DNA of 64,000 nt from Flavobacteriales bacterium (GCA_028122735.1 JAOHSR010000001.1:103798-167797), one strand, 5' to 3'; positions 50,383-64,000 are shown, counted from the first letter of the stretch. The notes: generated from the letters alone by a model not told the origin. Program-made: numbers and translations.

Positions 50383-50955
50383 TTATTTATTGTCTTCTCC
50401 CCAAGAATACTTGTTAAATTTAAAGCCACAAAGGTCTAGTACTCTATCAACTACAGTTGCAGTGAGTTCTTCAAAATCTGTTGGTTTACTGTAGTAGGAT
50501 GGAGTAGCAGGACATATAATTCCTCCTGCTTCGGTAATAGTTTTCATATTATTTATGTGAATTAAACTATATGGCGCTTCTCTTGCAACTAATATTAGTT
50601 TTCTTCTTTCTTTTAAGATTACATCTGCTGCTCTAGTAGTTAAATCATTAGAAATCCCACTTGATATTCTTCCCATTGTTCCCATAGAGCATGGACAAAC
50701 TATCATAGTATTGTATTTAGCAGATCCTGAGGCAAATGGAGCTTCAAAATCCATCTTTTCATAAAATTTAAAAGGATAGTTATTATAGTTTTCATTATCC
50801 AGTTCTGTTCTCCAAACATATTTTGCATTATCTGACATGATAACACCAACCTCATCAATTTGATCCTGAAGTGCTTGAAGTTTGTCTAATAAAACTTTTG
50901 CATATATAGCACCACTTGCTCCAGTTATTGCAACTATAATTTTATTTTTTTTCAT
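50383..50955 (-). CDS. ubiX: UbiX-family flavin prenyltransferase
   Basis: IIVAITGASGAIYAKVLLDKL, IVCPCSMGTMGRISSGISNDLTTRAADVILKERRKLILVAREAPYS. Confidence 0.93.
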   Translation of the reverse strand: MKKNKIIVAITGASGAIYAKVLLDKLQALQDQIDEVGVIMSDNAKYVWRTELDNENYNNYPFKFYEKMDFEAPFASGSAKYNTMIVCPCSMGTMGRISSGISNDLTTRAADVILKERRKLILVAREAPYSLIHINNMKTITEAGGIICPATPSYYSKPTDFEELTATVVDRVLDLCGFKFNKYSWGEDNK

Positions 50956-50956
50956 T

Positions 50957-51550
50957 TTAGATTTGATATTTTAATATAAAGTTTAAACCAGTATTATACT
51001 TTCCCTTATTGAATTTATAAGTTTGTCCAGAGGCATGTTCGGCAGTAGGAATAATAGAGTTGCTTAATCTTGTATTTAGAGAAATTTTTGAACTTAAATT
51101 ATATGATATTCCAATAATTGCGCCTAACTCAAAACTATTAAAACTTGTTTGGTTTTCTAATTCTCCATAAAGATCTTTGTAGTATCCATCAATTAGTGCT
51201 GAACAATGAACCCCTCCTTCAATAGAGAGTTTTTCTGAATTTTTAATAATAGCTAACAATGGAATTTCAATATAGTCTAAATGTATATCAGCTAAATTAT
51301 TTATATTCTGATTTGGATTTGAACTTCCCTTTTGAATATAAATAATCTCCATTTGAACCATTAATAAATTATTAATTTTTCTATTTACAAAACCACCTAA
51401 AATTATACCTGCCTTATTAAAACCTGCTAGATTATCACCAGAGATCTGACTTGTACTAATTCCTGCAGAAATTCCAGCATTAAATTCTTGAGATAAGCTG
51501 CTGAATTTTATAGAACAAATAAATATAATTAGAAAAAATATTTTCTTCAT
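50957..51550 (-). CDS. Outer-membrane beta-barrel (porin-like) protein
   Basis: Signal peptide; NAGISAGISTSQISGDNLAGFNKAGIILGGFVNRKI; amphipathic strands to C-terminus. Confidence 0.78.
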   Translation of the reverse strand: MKKIFFLIIFICSIKFSSLSQEFNAGISAGISTSQISGDNLAGFNKAGIILGGFVNRKINNLLMVQMEIIYIQKGSSNPNQNINNLADIHLDYIEIPLLAIIKNSEKLSIEGGVHCSALIDGYYKDLYGELENQTSFNSFELGAIIGISYNLSSKISLNTRLSNSIIPTAEHASGQTYKFNKGKYNTGLNFILKYQI

Positions 51551-52497
51551 TACCTTAGACTTGCTCCTACTCCAATTGTTGTTACAGGGAATTCACTAAA
51601 CGTATGATTTGCACTAACAGTTATTACTGCCAAGCTTAGTTTTAATCCAATATTTCCTCGAAGTTCATTTACTGTTTCAAATTCCATTTCAACAGGAAGA
51701 GATATTTCTAATTCATCAAGATTAAAATTGTCAGGATTTGTAATATTTTCTCCAGCCGTAAATGTAGTTGATGATGAATTGTAACCAATGCTAGCATATC
51801 CACATAACATCAAAATATTTTTTGAGATTATTAAATTAATATTTGTTGCTTGTATGTCCATACTTACTGGCTGATCTAATATTGAAATTTTTGATGTCAT
51901 CTGAGTATGAGCTGCTTGTAGTGATAGTGATAATGGAATAGTATTGCCAATAATCGGAATCCATTGTAAGAGGTCATGCTTAAATCCAATCCCCCACATA
52001 TTAATTTCTCCTTTTCCAATAAATCCAGCTTCATATTTATAATTAGGAATAAATCGACCATTTATTTCTGTCTTTTTAAATATTCCTAGACCTAAATTCA
52101 AGTTAGGCAGCACAATTAATGAAAATAATGGATCCTGATTTGGTAATTTAAATTCTTCGCCTTGATACTCTACTACTGCACCATTGCCTTTTCCTAATAT
52201 GGTAGGAGTTGAAGTGCTTGATGATGAGAAATTAGATATTGAATTGGGGTCAAAACTCTTTTGTTCATTACTTAAATTTAGAAAGCTTAGTGAGACTGTA
52301 GCATCAAAACCTAATAATTTATGTGGTCTAGCTGTATTGTACCAGCCATTGTTATTTATTGCGCCTAAACCACTTCCGAGAGGATTTAAGTATGCTTGCA
52401 AAAAAGATTTTGCATCATTAACATTGTCTACAGTTACCTGTGATTTTGAAGAAAAGGAAATAAATACTAATAGAGAAATAATTATAAACCGCAACAT
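51550..52497 (-). CDS. DUF6588-like outer-membrane protein
   Basis: Signal peptide; FLQAYLNPLGSGLGAINNNGWYNTARPHKLLGFDATVS; predicted barrel. Confidence 0.65.
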   Translation of the reverse strand: MLRFIIISLLVFISFSSKSQVTVDNVNDAKSFLQAYLNPLGSGLGAINNNGWYNTARPHKLLGFDATVSLSFLNLSNEQKSFDPNSISNFSSSSTSTPTILGKGNGAVVEYQGEEFKLPNQDPLFSLIVLPNLNLGLGIFKKTEINGRFIPNYKYEAGFIGKGEINMWGIGFKHDLLQWIPIIGNTIPLSLSLQAAHTQMTSKISILDQPVSMDIQATNINLIISKNILMLCGYASIGYNSSSTTFTAGENITNPDNFNLDELEISLPVEMEFETVNELRGNIGLKLSLAVITVSANHTFSEFPVTTIGVGASLR

Positions 52498-52504
52498 CTA
52501 CCCT

Positions 52505-53440
52505 TTATTTATTTAAAAGAGATTTTTCTTCTACTTGAAGAATTTCGTTATTAGATTCGTCATATATATATGCTAAGACATACATATTATTTAAATCCCA
52601 ATCACCTGCATTTCCATTTCCAAGTGTTAATATGTTTTGCGAATGATTAATATTGTTGTTTTCAAGAGTACTTATTACAGGCGAATATGCATTTGAAAAG
52701 CTATCGCCATTATTAATTTCCTCAGAAGCAAAATCTTCTCCAAATGTTGGTGTTAGAAATGATCGTAAGACATGTTTATGTACATATGATTCATCATCAT
52801 TATCTCCGTCTTTTTGCCAATTGGTAATATTATTTTCAGTTAGACAAACTACAAGTTTATAATTTCCGCTCATTGCAGAAAGTGATTCAGAGTTAATAAT
52901 TATATCAAACTGATCTGATAACATTAATGGGGTTTGATTAATTTCTATGTTTATTCCAAATAAGACATCTTTACTCAATTCATCCCCAACAATATTCGCC
53001 CACTCTCCCCAATCTTTTCTGTGATCTCCACTGCTGCTGTAGTCTATTCTATTGATCATTCCTTTTGGAAGTCCATTTGCACTGACCTGAAAAAAACCAT
53101 CTAGTTCTTCTCCCCAGCTTGTTCTAAAATCATAGATAAATTTTTCATCTGGATTTCCAGTTGGGTCAATTGGATACGGACGAGCAAAGGTTTGTCCAGC
53201 GTGTATTGCTAAGCCAATAATTTGGGAGCCATAGACATCATGAATTGCATCTAATTCTCTTGCGGCATCAGGACAGTTTTTGCATGTATGACCAGTAAAA
53301 TCTTCAATAAGAATATTTTTTACATATACGTTGTTTGTTGTGTCAATTGGGTCAATTGTACCGTTCATGTAAGGGCCTTCAATAACCTCACATGAGCTTA
53401 TGAATATAGTAGCTATTATTATATAAAAAAATCTATTCAT
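52505..53440 (-). CDS. Omp28-like outer-membrane lipoprotein with CxxC motif
   Basis: Likely start MNRFFYIIIATIFISSCEVIEGP (lipobox); VLIEDFTGHTCKNCPDAARELDAIHDVYG. ORF track extends upstream to 53515. Confidence 0.78.
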   Translation of the reverse strand: MNRFFYIIIATIFISSCEVIEGPYMNGTIDPIDTTNNVYVKNILIEDFTGHTCKNCPDAARELDAIHDVYGSQIIGLAIHAGQTFARPYPIDPTGNPDEKFIYDFRTSWGEELDGFFQVSANGLPKGMINRIDYSSSGDHRKDWGEWANIVGDELSKDVLFGINIEINQTPLMLSDQFDIIINSESLSAMSGNYKLVVCLTENNITNWQKDGDNDDESYVHKHVLRSFLTPTFGEDFASEEINNGDSFSNAYSPVISTLENNNINHSQNILTLGNGNAGDWDLNNMYVLAYIYDESNNEILQVEEKSLLNK

Positions 53441-53442
53441 AT

Positions 53443-55092
53443 TTAAAAACTTGTTGTTATACTTAAATTTAATCCATTCGATGAAGGAACTAACTTGCAC
53501 ACCCCACCAACACAAAAGATTCCTTCGCGTTTTTTCCCATATCCAATTTCAAATCTAGTAGAGCCCTTTAAAAAACCAACATTTATATTCATATAATGTA
53601 ATCTTTTACTTTCATTTTCATTTCCGTAATTATACATGTCTTGAATCGCAAAGAACCAATTAGGAGAAATTGTATACTCAGCAAGAGCCATTAACCAATC
53701 ACCTTCAGCTTCTTTGCTCGCTGTCTCCAATTGTTTTGAAAATAATGCTTGCGTTTCAAATCTAATCGTGTGGCCTTTTTTAATTCTATAACTCAAATCT
53801 AGTACTGCAATAGTTGAATTAAGAACTCCATATTCTCCTGGAGTTTTTCCTTCAAGAAAATCTTTATTATAAGTCTGATTTGCAATCACAGCATTGTAAC
53901 GGATATTTTTATTTATCTTTTTATTGATTTCAATATTTATATCAGAATAATATAGTTCCTGAGAAAAATCAAATAAATCAGGAGAATGATCTTGATTATC
54001 ATTAAGCATAGAATATCCTCCTTCAAGCCCATTTATTCTTGAAAAGTTAAAGTTTACCTTTGTTCCATATTTTCCGCCTAAGAGAGTACCTTTTTTAATC
54101 TTGTAAAATATATCTAATTGAACTCCAAGCTCTCCCATTGCTTGAGTGGCACAAGGATAAATTGCAAGTAGCGTGTATGCGTGAGGTTTACTAAGAGTGG
54201 GTATGTAATTCATTATATACGCCTTACCAGTTCTTTCTCTTTCAGATAGTAATAACATATTATCTGCTCTATGGATTTCAGCAGTAATTCCAAAACCTCT
54301 TTGAGAATATGTCAAACTATTTGTAAAAGCACTTCCACTTGCATAATTCATTTGGTTTTCTTGCAGAGAGTTTATTGGATCATTAATCTTATATGCAAAT
54401 TCCCCATAATAATTCCAGCCACCATTAAGAATATTTAATCTCCCAGCATATGCTGCAACATTTTGAGGGATTATAAATTTTGGATTTGTTCTTTGCTCAT
54501 ATCTACTAATAAAGCTACCACCTAAAATATATTTTGTGGTATTTTCTAATTCAAAGCTTTCATTAATATCAATTTCAGCATCAATTCCTCTAAAAATACC
54601 TTCAGCATAAGTGAAAAAAGTTCGGCTTTTACCAATAAAGCTTTTTAAACTTATTCCTTTACCAATTTTGTATTTTAATCTAATACCGTCCATTGCATTA
54701 TCAATACCAAGTCCTTTTTCTTCATAACTTCTAAATATTAAGCCACTTCCAAACTGTTCATAAAAATTTCCAGCTGTAATTTCTAATCCATCGATTGTGT
54801 ATCCTGCATATCTATAAGGAACTCCATTTCCGCGAAATTCGCTATCATAGTCTAAAAGTGCATTTAGATAACTCTCATATCTTAAACCAATTATGAAATT
54901 ATTTGAAGAATAGGTAAGATTTAAAAAAGCATTATTTAAAACTACTTCATCAGCTGCAGCAGCATTTATTGCTGCATCTTCAACATAGCTTTGAAGATTT
55001 AAACTAAAATCTCCAGTTATTTGACCATTATTTTGTGCAATTAGATTGCAGCAAGAGATTGAAAATAAAAAAGTAAGAAATTTATTTTTCAT
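53443..55092 (-). CDS. DUF6029-like outer-membrane beta-barrel protein
   Basis: Likely start MKNKFLTFLFSISCCNLIAQNNGQITGDFSLNLQSY; long beta-rich protein with C-terminal aromatic. Confidence 0.72.
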   Translation of the reverse strand: MKNKFLTFLFSISCCNLIAQNNGQITGDFSLNLQSYVEDAAINAAAADEVVLNNAFLNLTYSSNNFIIGLRYESYLNALLDYDSEFRGNGVPYRYAGYTIDGLEITAGNFYEQFGSGLIFRSYEEKGLGIDNAMDGIRLKYKIGKGISLKSFIGKSRTFFTYAEGIFRGIDAEIDINESFELENTTKYILGGSFISRYEQRTNPKFIIPQNVAAYAGRLNILNGGWNYYGEFAYKINDPINSLQENQMNYASGSAFTNSLTYSQRGFGITAEIHRADNMLLLSERERTGKAYIMNYIPTLSKPHAYTLLAIYPCATQAMGELGVQLDIFYKIKKGTLLGGKYGTKVNFNFSRINGLEGGYSMLNDNQDHSPDLFDFSQELYYSDINIEINKKINKNIRYNAVIANQTYNKDFLEGKTPGEYGVLNSTIAVLDLSYRIKKGHTIRFETQALFSKQLETASKEAEGDWLMALAEYTISPNWFFAIQDMYNYGNENESKRLHYMNINVGFLKGSTRFEIGYGKKREGIFCVGGVCKLVPSSNGLNLSITTSF

Positions 55093-55093
55093 T

Positions 55094-55591
55094 TTATTTT
55101 GTAACAAGGTGCTGAATTTGTTCATATAGTTCTTCTTCATCTCCATCAATATATCCTTTGTGGTTCCATACAATTTTACCTTCCCCATTAATTAGGAAAG
55201 TGTGTGGTACAGTTGATACTCCCATTGCTCTTTTAAGATCGGAATTTGAATCTAGATATACCTCGTAATCCCAATCGGATGAATTTACATAAGGAGCAAC
55301 TTTTGACATAGATCTTGTATCGTCAATTGAGATGGCTATTAACTTCACACCGGTTTCTTCTTGCCAATCGTCATAAACTTCAGCAATAGTATTGAGTTCT
55401 TTTTTACAAGGCTTACACCAGGTTGCCCAAAAACTAATCACCATTGGCTTACCATCATTTTCTAAATCTTGAATATTAATAGTTTTTCCTTGCAATGTTT
55501 TTACATCTATGTTTGGTAAAGACTTTCCTTGTGCCAAAGTAAGTGTAGCGCAAAAGAAAATAGATGTTAGAAATAGGATTGTTTTTTTCAT
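55094..55591 (-). CDS. TlpA-like thioredoxin-family protein
   Basis: Signal peptide; MVISFWATWCKPCKKELNTIAEVYDDW; STVPHTFLINGEGKIVW. Confidence 0.9.
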   Translation of the reverse strand: MKKTILFLTSIFFCATLTLAQGKSLPNIDVKTLQGKTINIQDLENDGKPMVISFWATWCKPCKKELNTIAEVYDDWQEETGVKLIAISIDDTRSMSKVAPYVNSSDWDYEVYLDSNSDLKRAMGVSTVPHTFLINGEGKIVWNHKGYIDGDEEELYEQIQHLVTK

Positions 55592-55635
55592 CTTATTGAG
55601 TTTTTGTATATAACAAATTTACAAAACTTAAATAA

Positions 55636-55668
55636 TAAAAAACCCTAGCATTGCTAGGGTTTTTTATT
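55636..55668 (-). terminator. Rho-independent (bidirectional-looking) terminator
   Basis: aaaaaaccctag-cattg-ctagggtttttt inverted repeat with flanking A/T runs. Confidence 0.75.
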
Positions 55669-55687
55669 AAAAATATAAGTGTTTAGT

Positions 55688-57736
55688 TTACTTAGTTACA
55701 GTAACCTTTCTCTTAATTACTGCATCTTGAGTAAGAATATTTACATAGTAAGATCCATTTGCAAGGCTAGAGATATTCACTTCTGATTTATTGTCAGATG
55801 CTAAAACTAGTTTACCAAATACATCATAAATTTCTATGCTTTTGAAGTTTCCTTCAATATTTAGTATGTCTTGAGCAGGGTTAGGGAATAATTCAAATTT
55901 ATTATCTGAACTTTCATTTATCGCTGTAGAACCACTACAAGGATTAGTTGCATCATCAATACATTCTTGTTCTGTGTTGTATGATCCAAGTCCTGCTGTT
56001 CCAACATCTATACATCCTTGAACAGGATCACAATTCCAAGTTGGACCTACGTAACATCCAGTTGTAGGGTCTGATTCACATTGAGACTCACTCATGTAAA
56101 TTCCTAAGCCAGGTGTTCCTTCAACACAACCAAAAGGAGAACACTCCCATGCTGGACCTGATGCCGCACCAGTAGAGAATGCAGTAGGTATAGCACTAAA
56201 GTTTTGCAGATTTACAGGGTCTCCTTCAAAAATGATAGTTCCATTAACATCAGTTACTATACATGTTCCAACACCGTTTGCACAGCACATCCCATCACCG
56301 TAAGAATCGTATAAGATAAATTCAAAACACATGTTTCCAGGAACAGCAACATCAATATTGTATGGAGTGTTACTTGCGTATGGTCCACCAGAACCTAATA
56401 TAGTTCCATCTTCAGCAACAATTTCCCATGAAGTTTCAGATCCATATCCATCAGTTAAAAGATCAATATTAACATTTCCAGCAGCGATTCCTTGAAGAAC
56501 ATCACCTGACATGTCTTTATGACTAAACTTAGATACTGATGAGTTGTTTGTAGTATTTTGATCAACTTGACCATTTGGATTAGAAGCAGTCCATGAAACT
56601 GTGTTGCCTGGATTTCCAAAGCTATCAGCAAGTGGGCTAAATGAAACATTAGTAATAGTTACAGTCTCTTGTGCTCCAGAAGCTAAATTACCTGTCCAGT
56701 TATAAGTAGCTGGAGTTCCACCGTTAATGTCATAAGTTAAATCTAATGAAGTTAATGCTTGGTTTCCGTAATTTCTAAAAGTAATATCAATATTAGTTTC
56801 AGAAGCACACATTACATCTGCAGCAGAAGATGCAGTTACATTTGCATCATATGCATTAGGGAATATACAAACTACTTCAGCTTGTACTCCTGTAATAATT
56901 TCACCTGGACCTTCAGCTATATAAGCTATAATATCCATATTTGTAGGATCAAGATCTGGGAAGTAACCAGTTGTTGATTGTCCAGTAGCTAAATTTGCTG
57001 GCATTTGCCATGTATGCGTATTTGGTACAAAAGTTCCAGCTGTTGTTACATTGTACTCTAATCCATTAGCACCATCCATTAAATGTCTAAACATATGTTG
57101 GTGGTTGTATGTTGGACTCCAAGGTCCAGAAATAATAGCTCCAGGATTATAATTCTGCGCTCCAGACTGAGGTCCTGCAACATTATTTTCAACTACAGCA
57201 ACATGTAGAACGTTAATGTTTGAAGTTGAAGAAGTATAATATGTTTCAGTATTAACAGTAAGAATGCCAGTAGACATGTCATAAGAAGCTTGTGCTCCTA
57301 AATTAACATAAGATGGTTGAGACATAATAAGTGTAGATGCAGCTGCCCAGTCACCTCTGCTTAATGCAGTTGTTCCAGCACTACCTTGTGGAGAAATACC
57401 ACTAAAAGTAGCTCTGTTCACTGTTCCGGCTGGATATCCAGCTAGTCCAGAAGCACTACCAATAGCAGCACCATATAAGCAATTAAAGTCAGGGTCACTA
57501 GGACCATTTGGAGTTGCATAACCACCTGTGTGAATATTAATTAAAAAAACGTCATTTGGATTAGCATCGTGTAGTCCTTGACCTATAACGTGACCATCAG
57601 GACAGAAACCACAATAAATTCCTGTGAACTCTTCAAGAACAACATTCTTATTTTCTGGTGTTGTGCTTACAAAAGTTTGTGCAAAAGAAATAGTCGTCAC
57701 TAAAGCTAATGCGATTGTTAGTAAATTTTTCATCAT
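55688..57736 (-). CDS. Omp28-like secreted protein with CxxC motif, Cys-rich repeats and T9SS C-terminal domain
   Basis: NVVLEEFTGIYCGFCPDGHVIGQGL; two Cys-rich repeats; C-term FELFPNPAQDILNIEGNFKSIEIYDVFGKLV...VIKRKVTVTK. Confidence 0.85.
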   Translation of the reverse strand: MMKNLLTIALALVTTISFAQTFVSTTPENKNVVLEEFTGIYCGFCPDGHVIGQGLHDANPNDVFLINIHTGGYATPNGPSDPDFNCLYGAAIGSASGLAGYPAGTVNRATFSGISPQGSAGTTALSRGDWAAASTLIMSQPSYVNLGAQASYDMSTGILTVNTETYYTSSTSNINVLHVAVVENNVAGPQSGAQNYNPGAIISGPWSPTYNHQHMFRHLMDGANGLEYNVTTAGTFVPNTHTWQMPANLATGQSTTGYFPDLDPTNMDIIAYIAEGPGEIITGVQAEVVCIFPNAYDANVTASSAADVMCASETNIDITFRNYGNQALTSLDLTYDINGGTPATYNWTGNLASGAQETVTITNVSFSPLADSFGNPGNTVSWTASNPNGQVDQNTTNNSSVSKFSHKDMSGDVLQGIAAGNVNIDLLTDGYGSETSWEIVAEDGTILGSGGPYASNTPYNIDVAVPGNMCFEFILYDSYGDGMCCANGVGTCIVTDVNGTIIFEGDPVNLQNFSAIPTAFSTGAASGPAWECSPFGCVEGTPGLGIYMSESQCESDPTTGCYVGPTWNCDPVQGCIDVGTAGLGSYNTEQECIDDATNPCSGSTAINESSDNKFELFPNPAQDILNIEGNFKSIEIYDVFGKLVLASDNKSEVNISSLANGSYYVNILTQDAVIKRKVTVTK

Positions 57737-57854: not shown

Positions 57855-58580
57855 ATGAAAAGAATTTCTTTTACCTCCTTATTGTTAATTTTAATATTTA
57901 ATTTTTGTTCTTATGAAAATTTACAAGCTCAAAGCTTAGAGCTTATTGGTGATTCATATGTTTCAGGAAATCCAGGTATTCCTATTGCTTCTCATATAAT
58001 AGTCAAGAATGTTACATCGGCCTCACTAGATGTTAGATGTCAAAAAAATATTATTGATACAGCAGCAGGAACTCAAAATTATTTTTGTTGGGGAATAAAT
58101 TGTTGGCCATCATCTACATATGTTTCACCAGTTCCAGATGGTTTAAGAACTATTCCCGCAGGTTATGCTGATACAAATAATTTTACTGGTTATTATGATG
58201 CTGCTTTTTCTGGAATACCATCTCAAGCTCGTGCTGTAGTGGAGTATTGCTTTTATCCTGTTGGAAATATATCTGACTCTACATGTCTTACAGTTCATTA
58301 TAACGATAATACTTCTTCAATTGCCGAAAATACAAGAGAAATAGGTTTGGGTAATTTTTATCCAAACCCTTCTAAAAATATAACAAGAATAAATTATGTT
58401 GCAGATAATAATTCTTACCTGCAAATTCTTGATATTTTGGGTAATAAAATTAAAAGTTTTGATTTAGATGATTCTGGAGTTTTAGAAATTCCAACAACTA
58501 ATTTTAGTTCAGGAATTTATTTTGGTAACTTAATATCTGATAGAAAGGTGGTATCAGTTAAAAAAATAATTATTAATTAA
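57855..58580 (+). CDS. Small secreted T9SS type A sorting domain protein
   Basis: Signal peptide; C-term GNFYPNPSKNITRINYVADNNSYLQILDILGNKIKSF...VVSVKKIIIN. Confidence 0.85.
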   Translation: MKRISFTSLLLILIFNFCSYENLQAQSLELIGDSYVSGNPGIPIASHIIVKNVTSASLDVRCQKNIIDTAAGTQNYFCWGINCWPSSTYVSPVPDGLRTIPAGYADTNNFTGYYDAAFSGIPSQARAVVEYCFYPVGNISDSTCLTVHYNDNTSSIAENTREIGLGNFYPNPSKNITRINYVADNNSYLQILDILGNKIKSFDLDDSGVLEIPTTNFSSGIYFGNLISDRKVVSVKKIIIN

Positions 58581-58653: not shown

Positions 58654-59235
58654 ATGATCACACAAATTACAGGCAAGCTTTTAGAAAAAACTCCAACATA
58701 TGTTGTTGTTGAGTGTAACGGTATAGGATATTTTATAAATATATCTCTGCAAACTTTTTCCTCTATAAATGAAGAAGCTTGTAAGTTATTTACTCATCTC
58801 TCAGTTAAGGAAGATTCACATACCCTTTATGGTTTTTATGATCAGAATGAGCGTCATTTATTTAGAAATTTGATAAGTGTTTCTGGAGTTGGACCCAGTA
58901 CCGCTCAAGTAATACTATCTACATATAATCCAAGTGAGATTGTAACATACATCACGACAGCCGATGTAGCGGCAATACAACATGTAAAAGGAATTGGCGC
59001 AAAAACCGCTCAGAGAATAATCATTGATTTAAAAGATAAGGTAGCAAAAGGACTTCCAAAATCAGATATTTTGTTTGAATTGGACAATACAATTAAAACT
59101 GAATCGTTATCAGCACTACTAGCTCTAGGATTTAACAAGAAAAGCGCTGAACAAAAAATTGATAAGGTGCTTAAAGAAAATCCAGATATTTCTAGCGTTG
59201 AAGAATTGGTTAAGATGGCTTTAAGTCAGATGTAA
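58654..59235 (+). CDS. ruvA: Holliday junction branch migration protein RuvA
   Basis: MITQITGKLLEKTPTYVVVECNGIGYFINI; HhH motifs SVSGVGPSTAQVIL, VKGIGAKTAQRIIIDLKDK. Confidence 0.97.
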   Translation: MITQITGKLLEKTPTYVVVECNGIGYFINISLQTFSSINEEACKLFTHLSVKEDSHTLYGFYDQNERHLFRNLISVSGVGPSTAQVILSTYNPSEIVTYITTADVAAIQHVKGIGAKTAQRIIIDLKDKVAKGLPKSDILFELDNTIKTESLSALLALGFNKKSAEQKIDKVLKENPDISSVEELVKMALSQM

Positions 59236-59260: not shown

Positions 59261-62200
59261 TTGATTATTAAGAATAAATACAGAATACTATTAACTGTTT
59301 TTACATTATTGTTTCATGTAAATAGTTTTTCACTTGTTTTAGATTCTTTAGAAAACAATTATAATTTACCATATCCATACCTTCAAAATTCTTCCAGTGG
59401 ATTGTTTATGAATAATCCATCTAATTTTAACACACAAATTAATTACGACATAATAAATAATCAGTATTTATTTCAAAACAGATTAGGAGAGTTTAATTTA
59501 GGCACACCAAAAATTTTATCTTTCGAAGAATTTCAAGAATATAATTTTAAAAAATCAATTTCTAGCTACTGGAATCAAAAATCAAATGACAGAAATTCTC
59601 AATCCGGTTCAAGATTTGGAATCCCAAAATTATATATACCTGGACAAGCATTTGATAAAGTATTTGGAGGTAACTCTGTTGATATTAGACCTCAAGGGTC
59701 TGCAGAATTGATATTTGGCCTAAAAATTAATCGCTTAGATAATCCCTCGCTGACTGAGGAGCAAAGAAGAACTACCACTTTTGATTTTCAAGAAAAAATT
59801 CAGATGAATGTAATAGGTAAGATTGGAGACAAACTTAAATTAACTACTAATTTTAATACTGAAGCAACATTTGACTTTGAGAATAATATGAAACTTGAAT
59901 ACACAGGTTATGAAGATGAGATAGTCAAAAAAATTGAAGTTGGAAATGTAAGTTTACCTTTGAACGGATCTTTAATAACAGGAAGTCAATCATTATTTGG
60001 CTTTAAAACTCAGATGCAATTTGGACGAACAACTATAACAGGTATTTTATCACAACAAAAAAGTACCATGTCTGAAATTGAAGTCAGTGGTGGAGCCCAA
60101 ACATCAGAATTTGATATTTATGCAGATCAGTATGAAGCTAATAAGCATTTCTTTTTAGCACATTATTTTAAAGAAAACTATGATATTGCTCTTCAACAAC
60201 TTCCCTTTGTTAATTCACCAATAAATATAAATAAGGTTGAAGTCTGGATAACAAATAAAACTGGGACTACCAATGATACCAGAAATATAGTTTCTTTTCT
60301 TGATTTAGGAGAGACAAGTCCTAATATCTACAATACGCAATTTACACTTTCAAACGGTGGTATTTTCCCAGATAATGATGCGGCAAATGATATGTTTGAA
60401 TCTCTTACAAATCAATTTAGTGGAATTAGAGATATAAATGATGTGAATAATATATTGTCCTCTCAAATTGGTATTGGGTTTTTAAATGGTCAGGATTATG
60501 AAAAATTAGAAAGGGCTAGAAAACTTTCAGAACAAGAATATTCTGTTCATCCTCAGCTTGGATATATTTCTTTAAATCAGGCTTTAAATAATGATGAGGT
60601 TTTAGCAGTTGCTTTTCAATATACAATAGGAAATAATACATTTCAAGTTGGAGAATTCACTAACTCAGGTCCTGTAGCTCCAAACGCACTAATTGTTAAA
60701 CTTTTAAAAGGAACAAATTTCTCGCCTAATTATCCAAACTGGCATTTGATGATGAAAAATATTTACGCTCTTGGAGCCTATCAGATGAGTAATAATGGTT
60801 TTATTTTAGATGTTATGTATGAAAATACAGAGGAGTCAGGAGCATTAACAAACTATATACCTGAAGGTAATCTTGAAGGTGTCCCACTAATCAAAGTAAT
60901 TAATGTTGATCAGTTAGATCAGCAAATGGATAATAGATCAGATGGAGTTTTTGATTTTCTTGAGGGATTAACTGTTAAATCTGCAAATGGTAGAATTATT
61001 TTTCCAGTAAGGGAACCATTTGGTAAATATTTAAGAAGCCAATTTATCGATCAGAATCTTGCTGATAAATATGTATATCAAGCCCTTTATGACTCTACAC
61101 TTACAGTAGCTCAACAATATCCTGAATTGAATAAATTTAGAATAAAAGGAAGTTACCAGGGGGCCTCTGGCTCTGAAATAAGATTAAATGCAATGAACGT
61201 TCCAGAAGGTTCAGTAACTGTAACTGCTGGTTCTCAAAAGTTAGTTGAAAATCAAGACTATACAGTTGATTATAATATGGGTAGAGTTACTATTATAAAT
61301 GAAGGTATATTAAATTCTGGTATCCCAATTAAGATTTCTTTGGAGAATAATTCAATGTTTGGAATTCAAAATAAGACATTAGTCGGTTTACATGCAGATT
61401 ATGATATTAATAAAGATTTTATTTTAGGTGCTACTATCTTAAATTTAACAGAAAGACCATATACTGATAAAATTAATACGGGTGATGAGCCAATATCAAA
61501 CACTATATGGGGGTTAGATGGTACCTATCAAACGGAAGCTCCTTGGATGACTAAGGCTGTTGATTTCATACCTTTTATAGAAACAAAAGCAAAGTCAAGA
61601 CTAATTGCTACAGCAGAATTTGCTCATTTAATCCCTGGACATCATAGAGCAGTGGGAAAGGAAGGTGTTTCATATATTGATGATTTTGAAGCTAGTAAGA
61701 CTTCAATAGATATCAGGAATATGGGCGCATGGAGATTAGCAAGTATACCACAAGGTCAAGATGATATTTTTCAAAATGCGTCATTAAATGATAATCTTGA
61801 AATCGGTTTTAAAAGAGCAAAGCTTGCATGGTATACAATTGACCCATTATTTTTTAGAAATACATCAATAACTCCTCCAAACATTAATAAAACTCTGTCT
61901 CTTGCAAATGGAAATACTGTAAAACAGCAATCTTATCATTACGTTAGAGAGATACTTGAAACTGAAGTTTTTCCTAATCGTGATCCAGATTTAGGTAGTC
62001 AAATAACAAATCTTGCAGTTTTAGATGTGGCATATTACCCACTAGAAAGAGGTCCAAATAATTATACAGTTTCAGGTTTAAAAGCTAATGGAGAATTGTA
62101 TAATCCCTCTGATAACTGGGGAGGTATAATGAGAAAATTAGAAACGAATGATTTTGAAGCAGCAAATATTGAATTTATTGAATTCTGGATGATGGATCCA

Positions 62201-64000
62201 TTCAACAATGAAGATGGCTTATCTAATCATAGTGGTGGAGATATGTATATAAATCTTGGTAATATATCTGAAGATGTTTTGAAGGACGGTTATAAAAGTT
62301 TTGAAAATGGTTTGCCAATAAGTGAAAATGTTATAGATGTAGACACCACACAATGGGGGAGGGTACCAACAAACTTTTCAATTGTAGAAGCTTTTGATAA
62401 TGACCCTCTCTCTAGAGAATTTCAAGATGTTGGATTGGATGGGCTTAGCAATAATGATGAAAAATTATTTTTTGAATCTAATTATTTAGAACAAATAGAA
62501 TCGCTGTATGGATCATCTTCACCTGCATATCTGAATGCATTAAAGGATCCTTCTGGCGATGATTTTCATTATTTTAGAGGAACTGATTTTGATAATTTGT
62601 CAACTGATATTTTAAATCGTTATAAAAATTATAATAACACTGACGGAAATTCTTCAACTACAGAACAATCGCCTGAGAATTATCCTACTTCAGCAACTAC
62701 TCAACCAAATTCAGAAGATATTAACCGCGATAATACTCTAAGTGAAACAGAAAGTTATTTTCAATATAAAATTAAATTATATCCAGGCATGGATGTTGGT
62801 GATAGTTATATTTCTGATGTTTTAGAAACCTCTGTTAAAGCTGAAAATGGAAGTCAAAGGAATATTAAATGGTACCAATTTAGGGTTCCAGTATATCAGC
62901 CAGACAAGGTAGTTGGGGGTATACAAGATTTTAAGTCAATTAGGTTTGTAAGAATGAATTTTACAAACTTTAATCAACCCATTGTATGCAGATTTGCAAC
63001 TTTTGATTTAGTAAGAGGGGAGTGGAGAAGATATAATTTTGATCTTGCAGAACCGGGAGAATATATTCCAATCGATAATCAAGGAGAAACCTCTTTTGAT
63101 GTTTCGGCGGTTAATATTGAAGAAAATGGAAATAGATCGCCTATCAACTATGTTTTACCACCAGGAATTGAACAAGAGACAGATAATACCACTACCACAC
63201 TTAGACAACAGAATGAACAGGCTCTTGTTCTGAAAATATGTGATTTAAAAGATGGAGATTCCCGAGCTGCATATAAAACCTCTGATTTAGATGTGCGAGC
63301 TTATAAAAGAATTAAAATGTTTGTACATGCTGAGGGAGAAGAAGATGATTTAGGAGAGGGTGATTTATCTTGCTTTATAAGATTAGGGACTGATTTTACA
63401 TCCAATTTTTATGAATATGAAATTCAATTAATACCTACACCTCATTATGCAACTTCACCGGATGAGATATGGCCATCATCAAATGAAATCGATATTGCAT
63501 TTGAAATTTTTCAACAAACTAAGCAAGAGAGAAACTTTAATAATGCTGATGTATCATCCCCATATATAAAATATGCTTCTGGTGGTAAGATTACTGTTGT
63601 TGGTAATCCAAACCTCTCGCAAGTAAAGACTATTATGATTGGGGTGAGAAATCCTAAGAAAACATCTTTTAATGGTGATGATGATGGTTTGTCTAAATGT
63701 GGTCAGATTTGGGTAAATGAACTTCGTCTAACTGATTTTGATGAATATGGGGGCTGGGCTGCAAATGGAAGATTAACTGCCAGAGTTGCAGATTTAGGTA
63801 ATGTTACTGTTTCAGGGAATTTAAGTACTATTGGTTTTGGAAGTATTGAAAAGAAAGTAAATGAAAGACAAAAATATAATGCTTATCAATATGATTTATC
63901 ATCTACTATTGATTTAGGTAAATTTTTTCCTGAGAATTCTGGAGTTAAAATTCCTATGTATTTAGGAAAGTCTGAATCAATAAGGAATCCTCAATATAAT
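59261..64000 (+). CDS. sprA: Cell surface protein SprA, T9SS translocon component (truncated at window end)
   Basis: Manual translation from TTG at 59261: PKLYIPGQAFDKVFGGNSVDIRPQGSAELIFGLKINRLDNPSLTEEQRRTTTFDFQEKIQMNVIGKIGDKLKLTTNFNTEATFDFENNMKLEY...; same frame gives GVKIPMYLGKSESIRNPQYN at the edge. Follows ruvA. Absent from ORF track because it runs off the end. Confidence 0.9.
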   Translation, partial: MIIKNKYRILLTVFTLLFHVNSFSLVLDSLENNYNLPYPYLQNSSSGLFMNNPSNFNTQINYDIINNQYLFQNRLGEFNLGTPKILSFEEFQEYNFKKSISSYWNQKSNDRNSQSGSRFGIPKLYIPGQAFDKVFGGNSVDIRPQGSAELIFGLKINRLDNPSLTEEQRRTTTFDFQEKIQMNVIGKIGDKLKLTTNFNTEATFDFENNMKLEYTGYEDEIVKKIEVGNVSLPLNGSLITGSQSLFGFKTQMQFGRTTITGILSQQKSTMSEIEVSGGAQTSEFDIYADQYEANKHFFLAHYFKENYDIALQQLPFVNSPININKVEVWITNKTGTTNDTRNIVSFLDLGETSPNIYNTQFTLSNGGIFPDNDAANDMFESLTNQFSGIRDINDVNNILSSQIGIGFLNGQDYEKLERARKLSEQEYSVHPQLGYISLNQALNNDEVLAVAFQYTIGNNTFQVGEFTNSGPVAPNALIVKLLKGTNFSPNYPNWHLMMKNIYALGAYQMSNNGFILDVMYENTEESGALTNYIPEGNLEGVPLIKVINVDQLDQQMDNRSDGVFDFLEGLTVKSANGRIIFPVREPFGKYLRSQFIDQNLADKYVYQALYDSTLTVAQQYPELNKFRIKGSYQGASGSEIRLNAMNVPEGSVTVTAGSQKLVENQDYTVDYNMGRVTIINEGILNSGIPIKISLENNSMFGIQNKTLVGLHADYDINKDFILGATILNLTERPYTDKINTGDEPISNTIWGLDGTYQTEAPWMTKAVDFIPFIETKAKSRLIATAEFAHLIPGHHRAVGKEGVSYIDDFEASKTSIDIRNMGAWRLASIPQGQDDIFQNASLNDNLEIGFKRAKLAWYTIDPLFFRNTSITPPNINKTLSLANGNTVKQQSYHYVREILETEVFPNRDPDLGSQITNLAVLDVAYYPLERGPNNYTVSGLKANGELYNPSDNWGGIMRKLETNDFEAANIEFIEFWMMDPFNNEDGLSNHSGGDMYINLGNISEDVLKDGYKSFENGLPISENVIDVDTTQWGRVPTNFSIVEAFDNDPLSREFQDVGLDGLSNNDEKLFFESNYLEQIESLYGSSSPAYLNALKDPSGDDFHYFRGTDFDNLSTDILNRYKNYNNTDGNSSTTEQSPENYPTSATTQPNSEDINRDNTLSETESYFQYKIKLYPGMDVGDSYISDVLETSVKAENGSQRNIKWYQFRVPVYQPDKVVGGIQDFKSIRFVRMNFTNFNQPIVCRFATFDLVRGEWRRYNFDLAEPGEYIPIDNQGETSFDVSAVNIEENGNRSPINYVLPPGIEQETDNTTTTLRQQNEQALVLKICDLKDGDSRAAYKTSDLDVRAYKRIKMFVHAEGEEDDLGEGDLSCFIRLGTDFTSNFYEYEIQLIPTPHYATSPDEIWPSSNEIDIAFEIFQQTKQERNFNNADVSSPYIKYASGGKITVVGNPNLSQVKTIMIGVRNPKKTSFNGDDDGLSKCGQIWVNELRLTDFDEYGGWAANGRLTARVADLGNVTVSGNLSTIGFGSIEKKVNERQKYNAYQYDLSSTIDLGKFFPENSGVKIPMYLGKSESIRNPQYN

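Follow-up and report, generated by a model that had tools for sequence, protein, structure and literature searches.

Little is understood of how bacteria govern the disulfides exposed at the cell surface. The inner membrane is known to be crossed by thiol relays; for the outer membrane, to our knowledge, none has been described. The locus described here raises the question of whether such a relay exists. It occupies positions 52505-57736 of a 64,000-nt stretch of DNA (the window) from a Flavobacteriales bacterium (GCA_028122735.1 JAOHSR010000001.1:103798-167797), where an earlier note had read a same-strand run of two Omp28-like proteins, a DUF6029-like barrel and a TlpA-like thioredoxin, and had suggested that they could form a thiol relay at the outer membrane or cell surface. 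We give the reading of the cluster as a thiol-disulfide relay across the outer membrane an even chance of being right.

The four genes are all present on the minus strand at the positions given in that note, and their family names are backed by Pfam. When better start codons are chosen, the ORFs of TlpA, DUF6029 and the Omp28 lipoprotein become shorter than the first-ATG/TTG ORFs reported previously (Table 1). The shared strand holds; a strong terminator-like hairpin follows the gene of the T9SS-tailed Omp28, so that this gene and TlpA-DUF6029-Omp28 are probably two separate transcripts. The divergent gene of P0008, which had been missed, is part of the same conserved neighbourhood. On the plus strand the PorA-like gene, ruvA and sprA stand in a row, with the sprA start 25 nt past ruvA, and 10 other loci likewise have sprA in their flanks. 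Of the genes downstream of the cluster, OMP_b-brl_2 recurs at +2/+3 in 33 of 121 loci, and 29 of the 121 have ubiX, usually at +3/+4; together with DUF6588 they are conserved in some lineages and probably not core. The genome, which is incomplete, contains four PF11551 copies, two of them beyond the window on contigs C9 and C22.

Table 1 Features of the cluster and its surroundings in the window.
Feature	Position	Strand	Remarks
ubiX	50383-50955	-	downstream side
OMP_b-brl_2	50957-51550	-	downstream side
DUF6588	51550-52497	-	downstream of the Omp28 lipoprotein gene
Omp28-family lipoprotein (P0001), N-terminal thioredoxin-like domain	53440-52505	-	starts 2 nt past the DUF6029 stop
CKNC active-site motif of the Omp28 lipoprotein (C53, C56)	53273-53284	-	invariant in alignment A2
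DUF6029 outer-membrane barrel, predicted ~24 strands	55092-53443	-	starts 1 nt past the TlpA stop
Small last-loop hairpin of DUF6029 (residues 524-535)	53488-53523	-	invariant cysteine pair
DUF6029 C527 codon	53512-53514	-	
DUF6029 C532 codon	53497-53499	-	
TlpA/ResA-like periplasmic thioredoxin (P0003), WCKPC	55591-55094	-	dedicated subfamily
Terminator-like hairpin, gap between T9SS-tailed Omp28 and TlpA	55669-55633	-	17-pair stem and T tail
T9SS-tailed Omp28-like protein (P0004), CGFC, T9SS type A C-terminal sorting domain	57736-55688	-	
PorA-family protein (P0008), Ig-like N-terminal domain and T9SS type A tail	57855-58580	+	
Invariant PorA-family cysteine pair (CWGINC)	58086-58103	+	columns C56, C61 of alignment A4
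ruvA	58654-59235	+	
sprA, T9SS outer-membrane translocon	59261-64000	+	runs off the window; PF14349 match at 62480-64000

The barrel protein matches PF19494 (DUF6029) with 583 bits against a gathering score of 27, over profile positions 1-538 of 538. The C-terminal Omp28 domain PF11551 scores 71.3 bits in P0001 and a marginal 35.9 bits in P0004 against a gathering score of 34.9, and both proteins (120.8 and 64.9 bits) stay under the 150-bit cut-off of the NCBIfam model lipoprot_Omp28 (NF033782). A Por_Secre_tail match in P0004 agrees with the T9SS sorting domain read previously. P0003 is a ResA-type thioredoxin with a WCKPC motif (AhpC-TSA domain, 82.6 bits against 26), and the PDB chain closest to it is 2m72 (E 8e-51), which we take to be the thioredoxin PG2175. 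Since P0003 scores below the curated NCBIfam cut-offs for ResA (100.5 against 170), TlpA (50.1 against 230) and DsbE (56.8 against 123), it represents a distinct subfamily.

The thiol motifs DFTGHTCKNCP, EFTGIYCGFCP and WCKPC are all present as first read. WCxPC occurs in 114 of 114 TlpA proteins at position -1 of DUF6029. The motifs are no chance matches. In Omp28 a CxxC follows the TG-type motif in all 104 proteins encoded directly downstream of DUF6029; the sole miss of the pattern (L152) reads EDCTGFRCNNCP and still contains the CxxC. In alignment A2 the lipobox cysteine and H80 are also invariant. The upstream Omp28 copies are less uniform, with a recognisable CxxC in 34 of 61; the other 27 have none by a simple pattern, so redox activity need not extend to every paralogue. 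No selenocysteine versions of the motifs were found in the loci, although NCBIfam includes an Omp28-related selenoprotein.

The predicted structure of P0001 (pLDDT 83.3) comprises a thioredoxin fold followed by a beta domain. The first helix has the CxxC at its N-terminal end, and a near-invariant proline precedes the next core strand. The earlier note had named a model with these cysteines outside an accessible thioredoxin-like site as a refutation, and the prediction does not bear this out. The best structural match in the PDB is HBP35 (E 1.4e-10), followed by 2axo, presumably a DUF1223 protein, and then by Omp28 itself. HBP35 (PG0616), a surface thioredoxin of P. gingivalis, resembles the Omp28 lipoprotein in its CxxC thioredoxin fold and subsequent beta domain, and P0004 in its export by T9SS. 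However, P0001 is a predicted lipoprotein and not T9SS cargo, and the two proteins are 15% identical in sequence over the structural match. The thioredoxin activity of HBP35 has been measured and is abolished by Cys mutation (PMC2907840).

The two-Cys segment FCVGGVCK of DUF6029, also present as first read, proves to be the only invariant cysteine pair of the family. CxxG[VI]C occurs in 138 of 138 intact homologues, at a distance from the C-terminus of 23 residues in 134 of them and of 24 in the remaining 4, and 108 of the 138 have no further cysteine past residue 60. Both cysteines are invariant in alignment A1 at 17-43% identity. The AlphaFold2 model (pLDDT 88.7, pTM 0.85) is a barrel of ~24 strands in which C527 and C532 lie in the small hairpin between the last two strands. 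Both ends of such barrels are usually periplasmic, so that the last loop with its cysteine pair would be extracellular. The pair could also be merely a structural disulfide. Foldseek returns the FimD/PapC ushers, which are 24-stranded too, as best matches, and MtrB and LptD are also among them; at TM 0.3-0.5 these matches reflect only a general likeness of large barrels. Profile matches to RecA fusion chains in the PDB were rejected as an artefact. At L055 8128-9246 (G226) the DUF6029 frame is only 372 aa long and the cysteine pair is gone, with TlpA, Omp28 and a PorA-like gene still there; this short frame may be a pseudogene or a sequencing error.

The adjacency on which the earlier proposal depended recurs in other genomes, the order TlpA-DUF6029-Omp28 being kept phylum-wide. 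The loci read were 59 sampled over the phylum (L035-L074, L155-L174) and 80 named ones (L075-L154); counts rest on mechanical ORF calls in partly draft genomes and exclude G227, a DUF6029 match from family f24 whose locus has no partners. In the phylum sample, which is spread by genus, TlpA is encoded directly upstream (-1) of DUF6029 in 45 of 58 loci and at positions -4 to -8 in 0 of 212, and Omp28 directly downstream (+1) in 30 of 58. The named set, biased to close relatives, has TlpA at -1 in 68 of 76 loci and Omp28 at +1 in 73 of 78. A same-strand Omp28 at -2, like the T9SS-tailed one of the window, is found in 38 of the first 121 loci. Searched viral contigs contained no relatives. Several loci (L036 3046-4611, L049 5585-7051, L079 and L105) encode, near the cluster, a secreted protein of yet another type whose thioredoxin-like motif reads CGPCWNYH or similar.

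Co-occurrence was assessed in 297 genomes that span the Bacteroidota, 80 with DUF6029 and 217 without. The dedicated TlpA subfamily, defined as P0003-like at E<=1e-25, is present in 67 of the 80 and in 0 of the 217; the genomes listed without a P0003-like match each have a dozen or more TlpA candidates. Omp28 was found in 62 genomes, 58 of the 80 and 4 of the 217, and PorA-like proteins in 41 and 7, respectively. Fisher P values are very small but inflated by shared ancestry, and it is the qualitative split that counts. SprA is found in 79 of the 80 DUF6029 genomes and in 150 of the other 217, and thus the gene set is nested within T9SS organisms. G230 (L052) has a DUF6029 cluster with a 689-aa Omp28 that contains two PF11551 matches; SprA was not found in this 99% complete genome, possibly a case of the cluster without T9SS.

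In six genomes (G212, G196, G288, G109, G160 and G128) TlpA is retained on a different contig from DUF6029, and in G212, G196, G288 and G160 a PorA-like gene divergently adjoins the relocated TlpA. A single 667-aa ORF (L042:7939-9942) joins a signal peptide, a thioredoxin domain (WCVPC) and a DUF6029 barrel devoid of a second signal peptide, which puts TlpA at the barrel's periplasmic side. Envelope genes may stay together by operon inertia with no joint function, and DUF6588, OMP_b-brl_2, ubiX and ruvA/B are likewise syntenic near the window. Nonetheless, linkage to DUF6029 persists at 17-20% DUF6029 identity and across classes, where ubiX and ruvA drop out, and the flanking positions of the loci are empty of cluster families. 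With the retention of relocated TlpA and the fusion, this makes inertia a very improbable explanation.

The relay reading can be stated as follows. A dedicated periplasmic TlpA would exchange electrons via the DUF6029 barrel and its surface-side cysteine pair, and this pair in turn with thioredoxin-fold partners outside, namely the Omp28 lipoprotein, commonly joined by a T9SS-anchored Omp28, so that both sides of the membrane would carry thioredoxin folds. The Omp28 partners, presumed to face the surface, would hold surface disulfides at a set redox state. PorA may be one client, its conserved Cx(2-4)C pair being switched or matured. Behind this reading stand gene linkage, co-occurrence, the dedicated TlpA, the fusion, invariant cysteines, predicted folds and homology to PorA. 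The idea of a relay put forward in the earlier note is partly supported, by conserved linkage, co-occurrence, the fusion, thioredoxin folds and an invariant pair; electron transfer between these proteins and its direction are inferred. Reduction is the more likely direction because TlpA/ResA proteins with WCxPC are usually reductants. No inner-membrane electron donor of the CcdA/DsbD type is encoded within the cluster.

The DsbD/CcdA/ScsB inner-membrane relays, which feed TlpA/ResA/DsbE, likewise combine a periplasmic TlpA-type thioredoxin, a cysteine pair in a membrane protein and further thioredoxin-fold partners. They are built on helical inner-membrane proteins, whereas the present membrane component is an outer-membrane barrel with no homology to them. 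LptDE, the FimD/PapC ushers and MtrB are large barrels among the Foldseek matches; the resemblance of DUF6029 to them is limited to TM about 0.3-0.5, and it lacks a plug, usher or cytochrome partner like theirs.

Alternatively, this could be ordinary oxidative folding, in which TlpA is an oxidase or isomerase dedicated to the structural disulfides within DUF6029, Omp28 and PorA, with DUF6029 acting as a porin or polymer channel for unrelated cargo. In favour, a single cysteine pair is invariant in each of the partners, and LptD offers the precedent of a barrel dependent on disulfide chaperones. Some Wzi-like polysaccharide barrels also resemble DUF6029 (PMC9603273). The type of TlpA, of a kind usually reducing, and the catalytic-looking partners outside nevertheless argue against plain oxidative folding; the Omp28 proteins have thioredoxin folds with a catalytic-looking CxxC, unlike plain substrates, and other thioredoxin folds replace them in family f24 (below). 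We regard this explanation as unlikely.

The candidate client P0008 has 241 aa, compared with 246 aa in PorA of P. gingivalis, and its family has no Pfam domain except the T9SS tail (Por_Secre_tail, 41.6 bits in P0008). The PorA-like profile was built on tail-stripped sequences, an earlier version having caught T9SS tails. Three residues, N30, C56 and C61, are invariant in alignment A4 (39 sequences, window row first, 11-44% identity). Its profile matches PDB 6kjk, the N-domain of P. gingivalis PorA (E 1.7e-7), with C56 and C61 falling on the CFGQC of PorA; judged by profile and motif, P0008 is a member of the PorA family. Most relatives contain Cx(2-4)C, and the 8 of 66 with no recognisable pair by pattern are few and divergent. 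PorA-family genes adjoin TlpA, Omp28 or DUF6029 in 63 of 68 cases in the loci. When 395 Bacteroidia genomes were searched starting from the PorA-N fragment, 3 matches emerged, and the two for which surrounding sequence was at hand both fall within TlpA-DUF6029-Omp28 clusters. PorA-like proteins are undetected in about half of the DUF6029 genomes, and thus PorA is not an obligate client.

In P. gingivalis, PorA is PG2172 (PMC8754138), also designated PGN_0123, PG2173 is the Omp28 lipoprotein (PMC9722745) and PG_2174 is an uncharacterised vesicle protein (PMC4335976). The consecutive numbers PG2172-PG2175 fit TlpA-DUF6029-Omp28-PorA, the order seen in one run at L131 and L147. Numbering and literature thus suggest that P. 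gingivalis has the same cluster, with PG2174 as DUF6029 and PG2175 as TlpA; the genomes sampled here contain no Porphyromonas genome. The window differs in that its PorA gene is divergent and an extra T9SS-tailed Omp28 lies between.

Normal expression of T9SS genes requires PorA, which acts through PorXY-SigP, as shown only in P. gingivalis, and PorA is located on the surface in T9SS-translocation mutants (PMC7712824). In the part of the literature searched, no redox role of PorA and no link of PorA to DUF6029 or TlpA was found, and DUF6029 was mentioned in one paper only. An extension of the relay reading, which we consider doubtful, is that a dedicated Bacteroidota pathway moves thiol reducing equivalents over the outer membrane and determines whether PorA is oxidised or reduced; redox conditions outside the cell would then tune type IX secretion via PorXY-SigP.

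The arrival of PorA at the surface in such mutants is what a different assignment would account for, in which DUF6029 and the Omp28 lipoprotein form an outer-membrane translocon that carries PorA outside by a route other than the T9SS machinery, and TlpA and Omp28 handle disulfides of PorA and the barrel. A barrel paired with a lipoprotein is the arrangement of LptDE, the FimD/PapC ushers head the Foldseek matches with LptD among them, and PorA genes adjoin the cluster. The Foldseek scores, however, convey no specific likeness to these exporters, and PorA has a T9SS sorting domain and was found with PorV-Sov (PMC8754138). There is, in our judgement, a small chance that this assignment is correct.

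The f24 lineage bears on the same choice. In f24, G183 and G218 a very divergent barrel keeps C-x4-C (GGPACTSGICYE) and the upstream TlpA; Omp28 is absent, and an unrelated redoxin-fold protein with CPHC or CPxC is encoded beside the barrel, in a lipoprotein form, a tailed form or both. On sequence grounds, the two outside roles may be filled by different protein families while the logic of the cluster persists. The swap favours a relay over a PorA exporter because the barrel stays in f24 where PorA is undetected. Divergent DUF6029 loci with redoxin-fold neighbours and no Omp28 are L155, L156, L158-L163 and L073.

An uncharacterised barrel family thereby gains a genetic context and an invariant motif. 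For P. gingivalis PorA, the arrival at the surface independent of the T9SS machinery and the link to the inner-membrane kinase PorY (PMC7712824) can now be pointed at three neighbouring genes. Uses beyond secretion control are hinted at by the Omp28-related PROKKA_00502 of Paraprevotella clara, which is required for degradation of trypsin at the surface (PMC9477747). If PROKKA_00502 adopts a thioredoxin fold, this degradation could be triggered by reducing the disulfides of trypsin.
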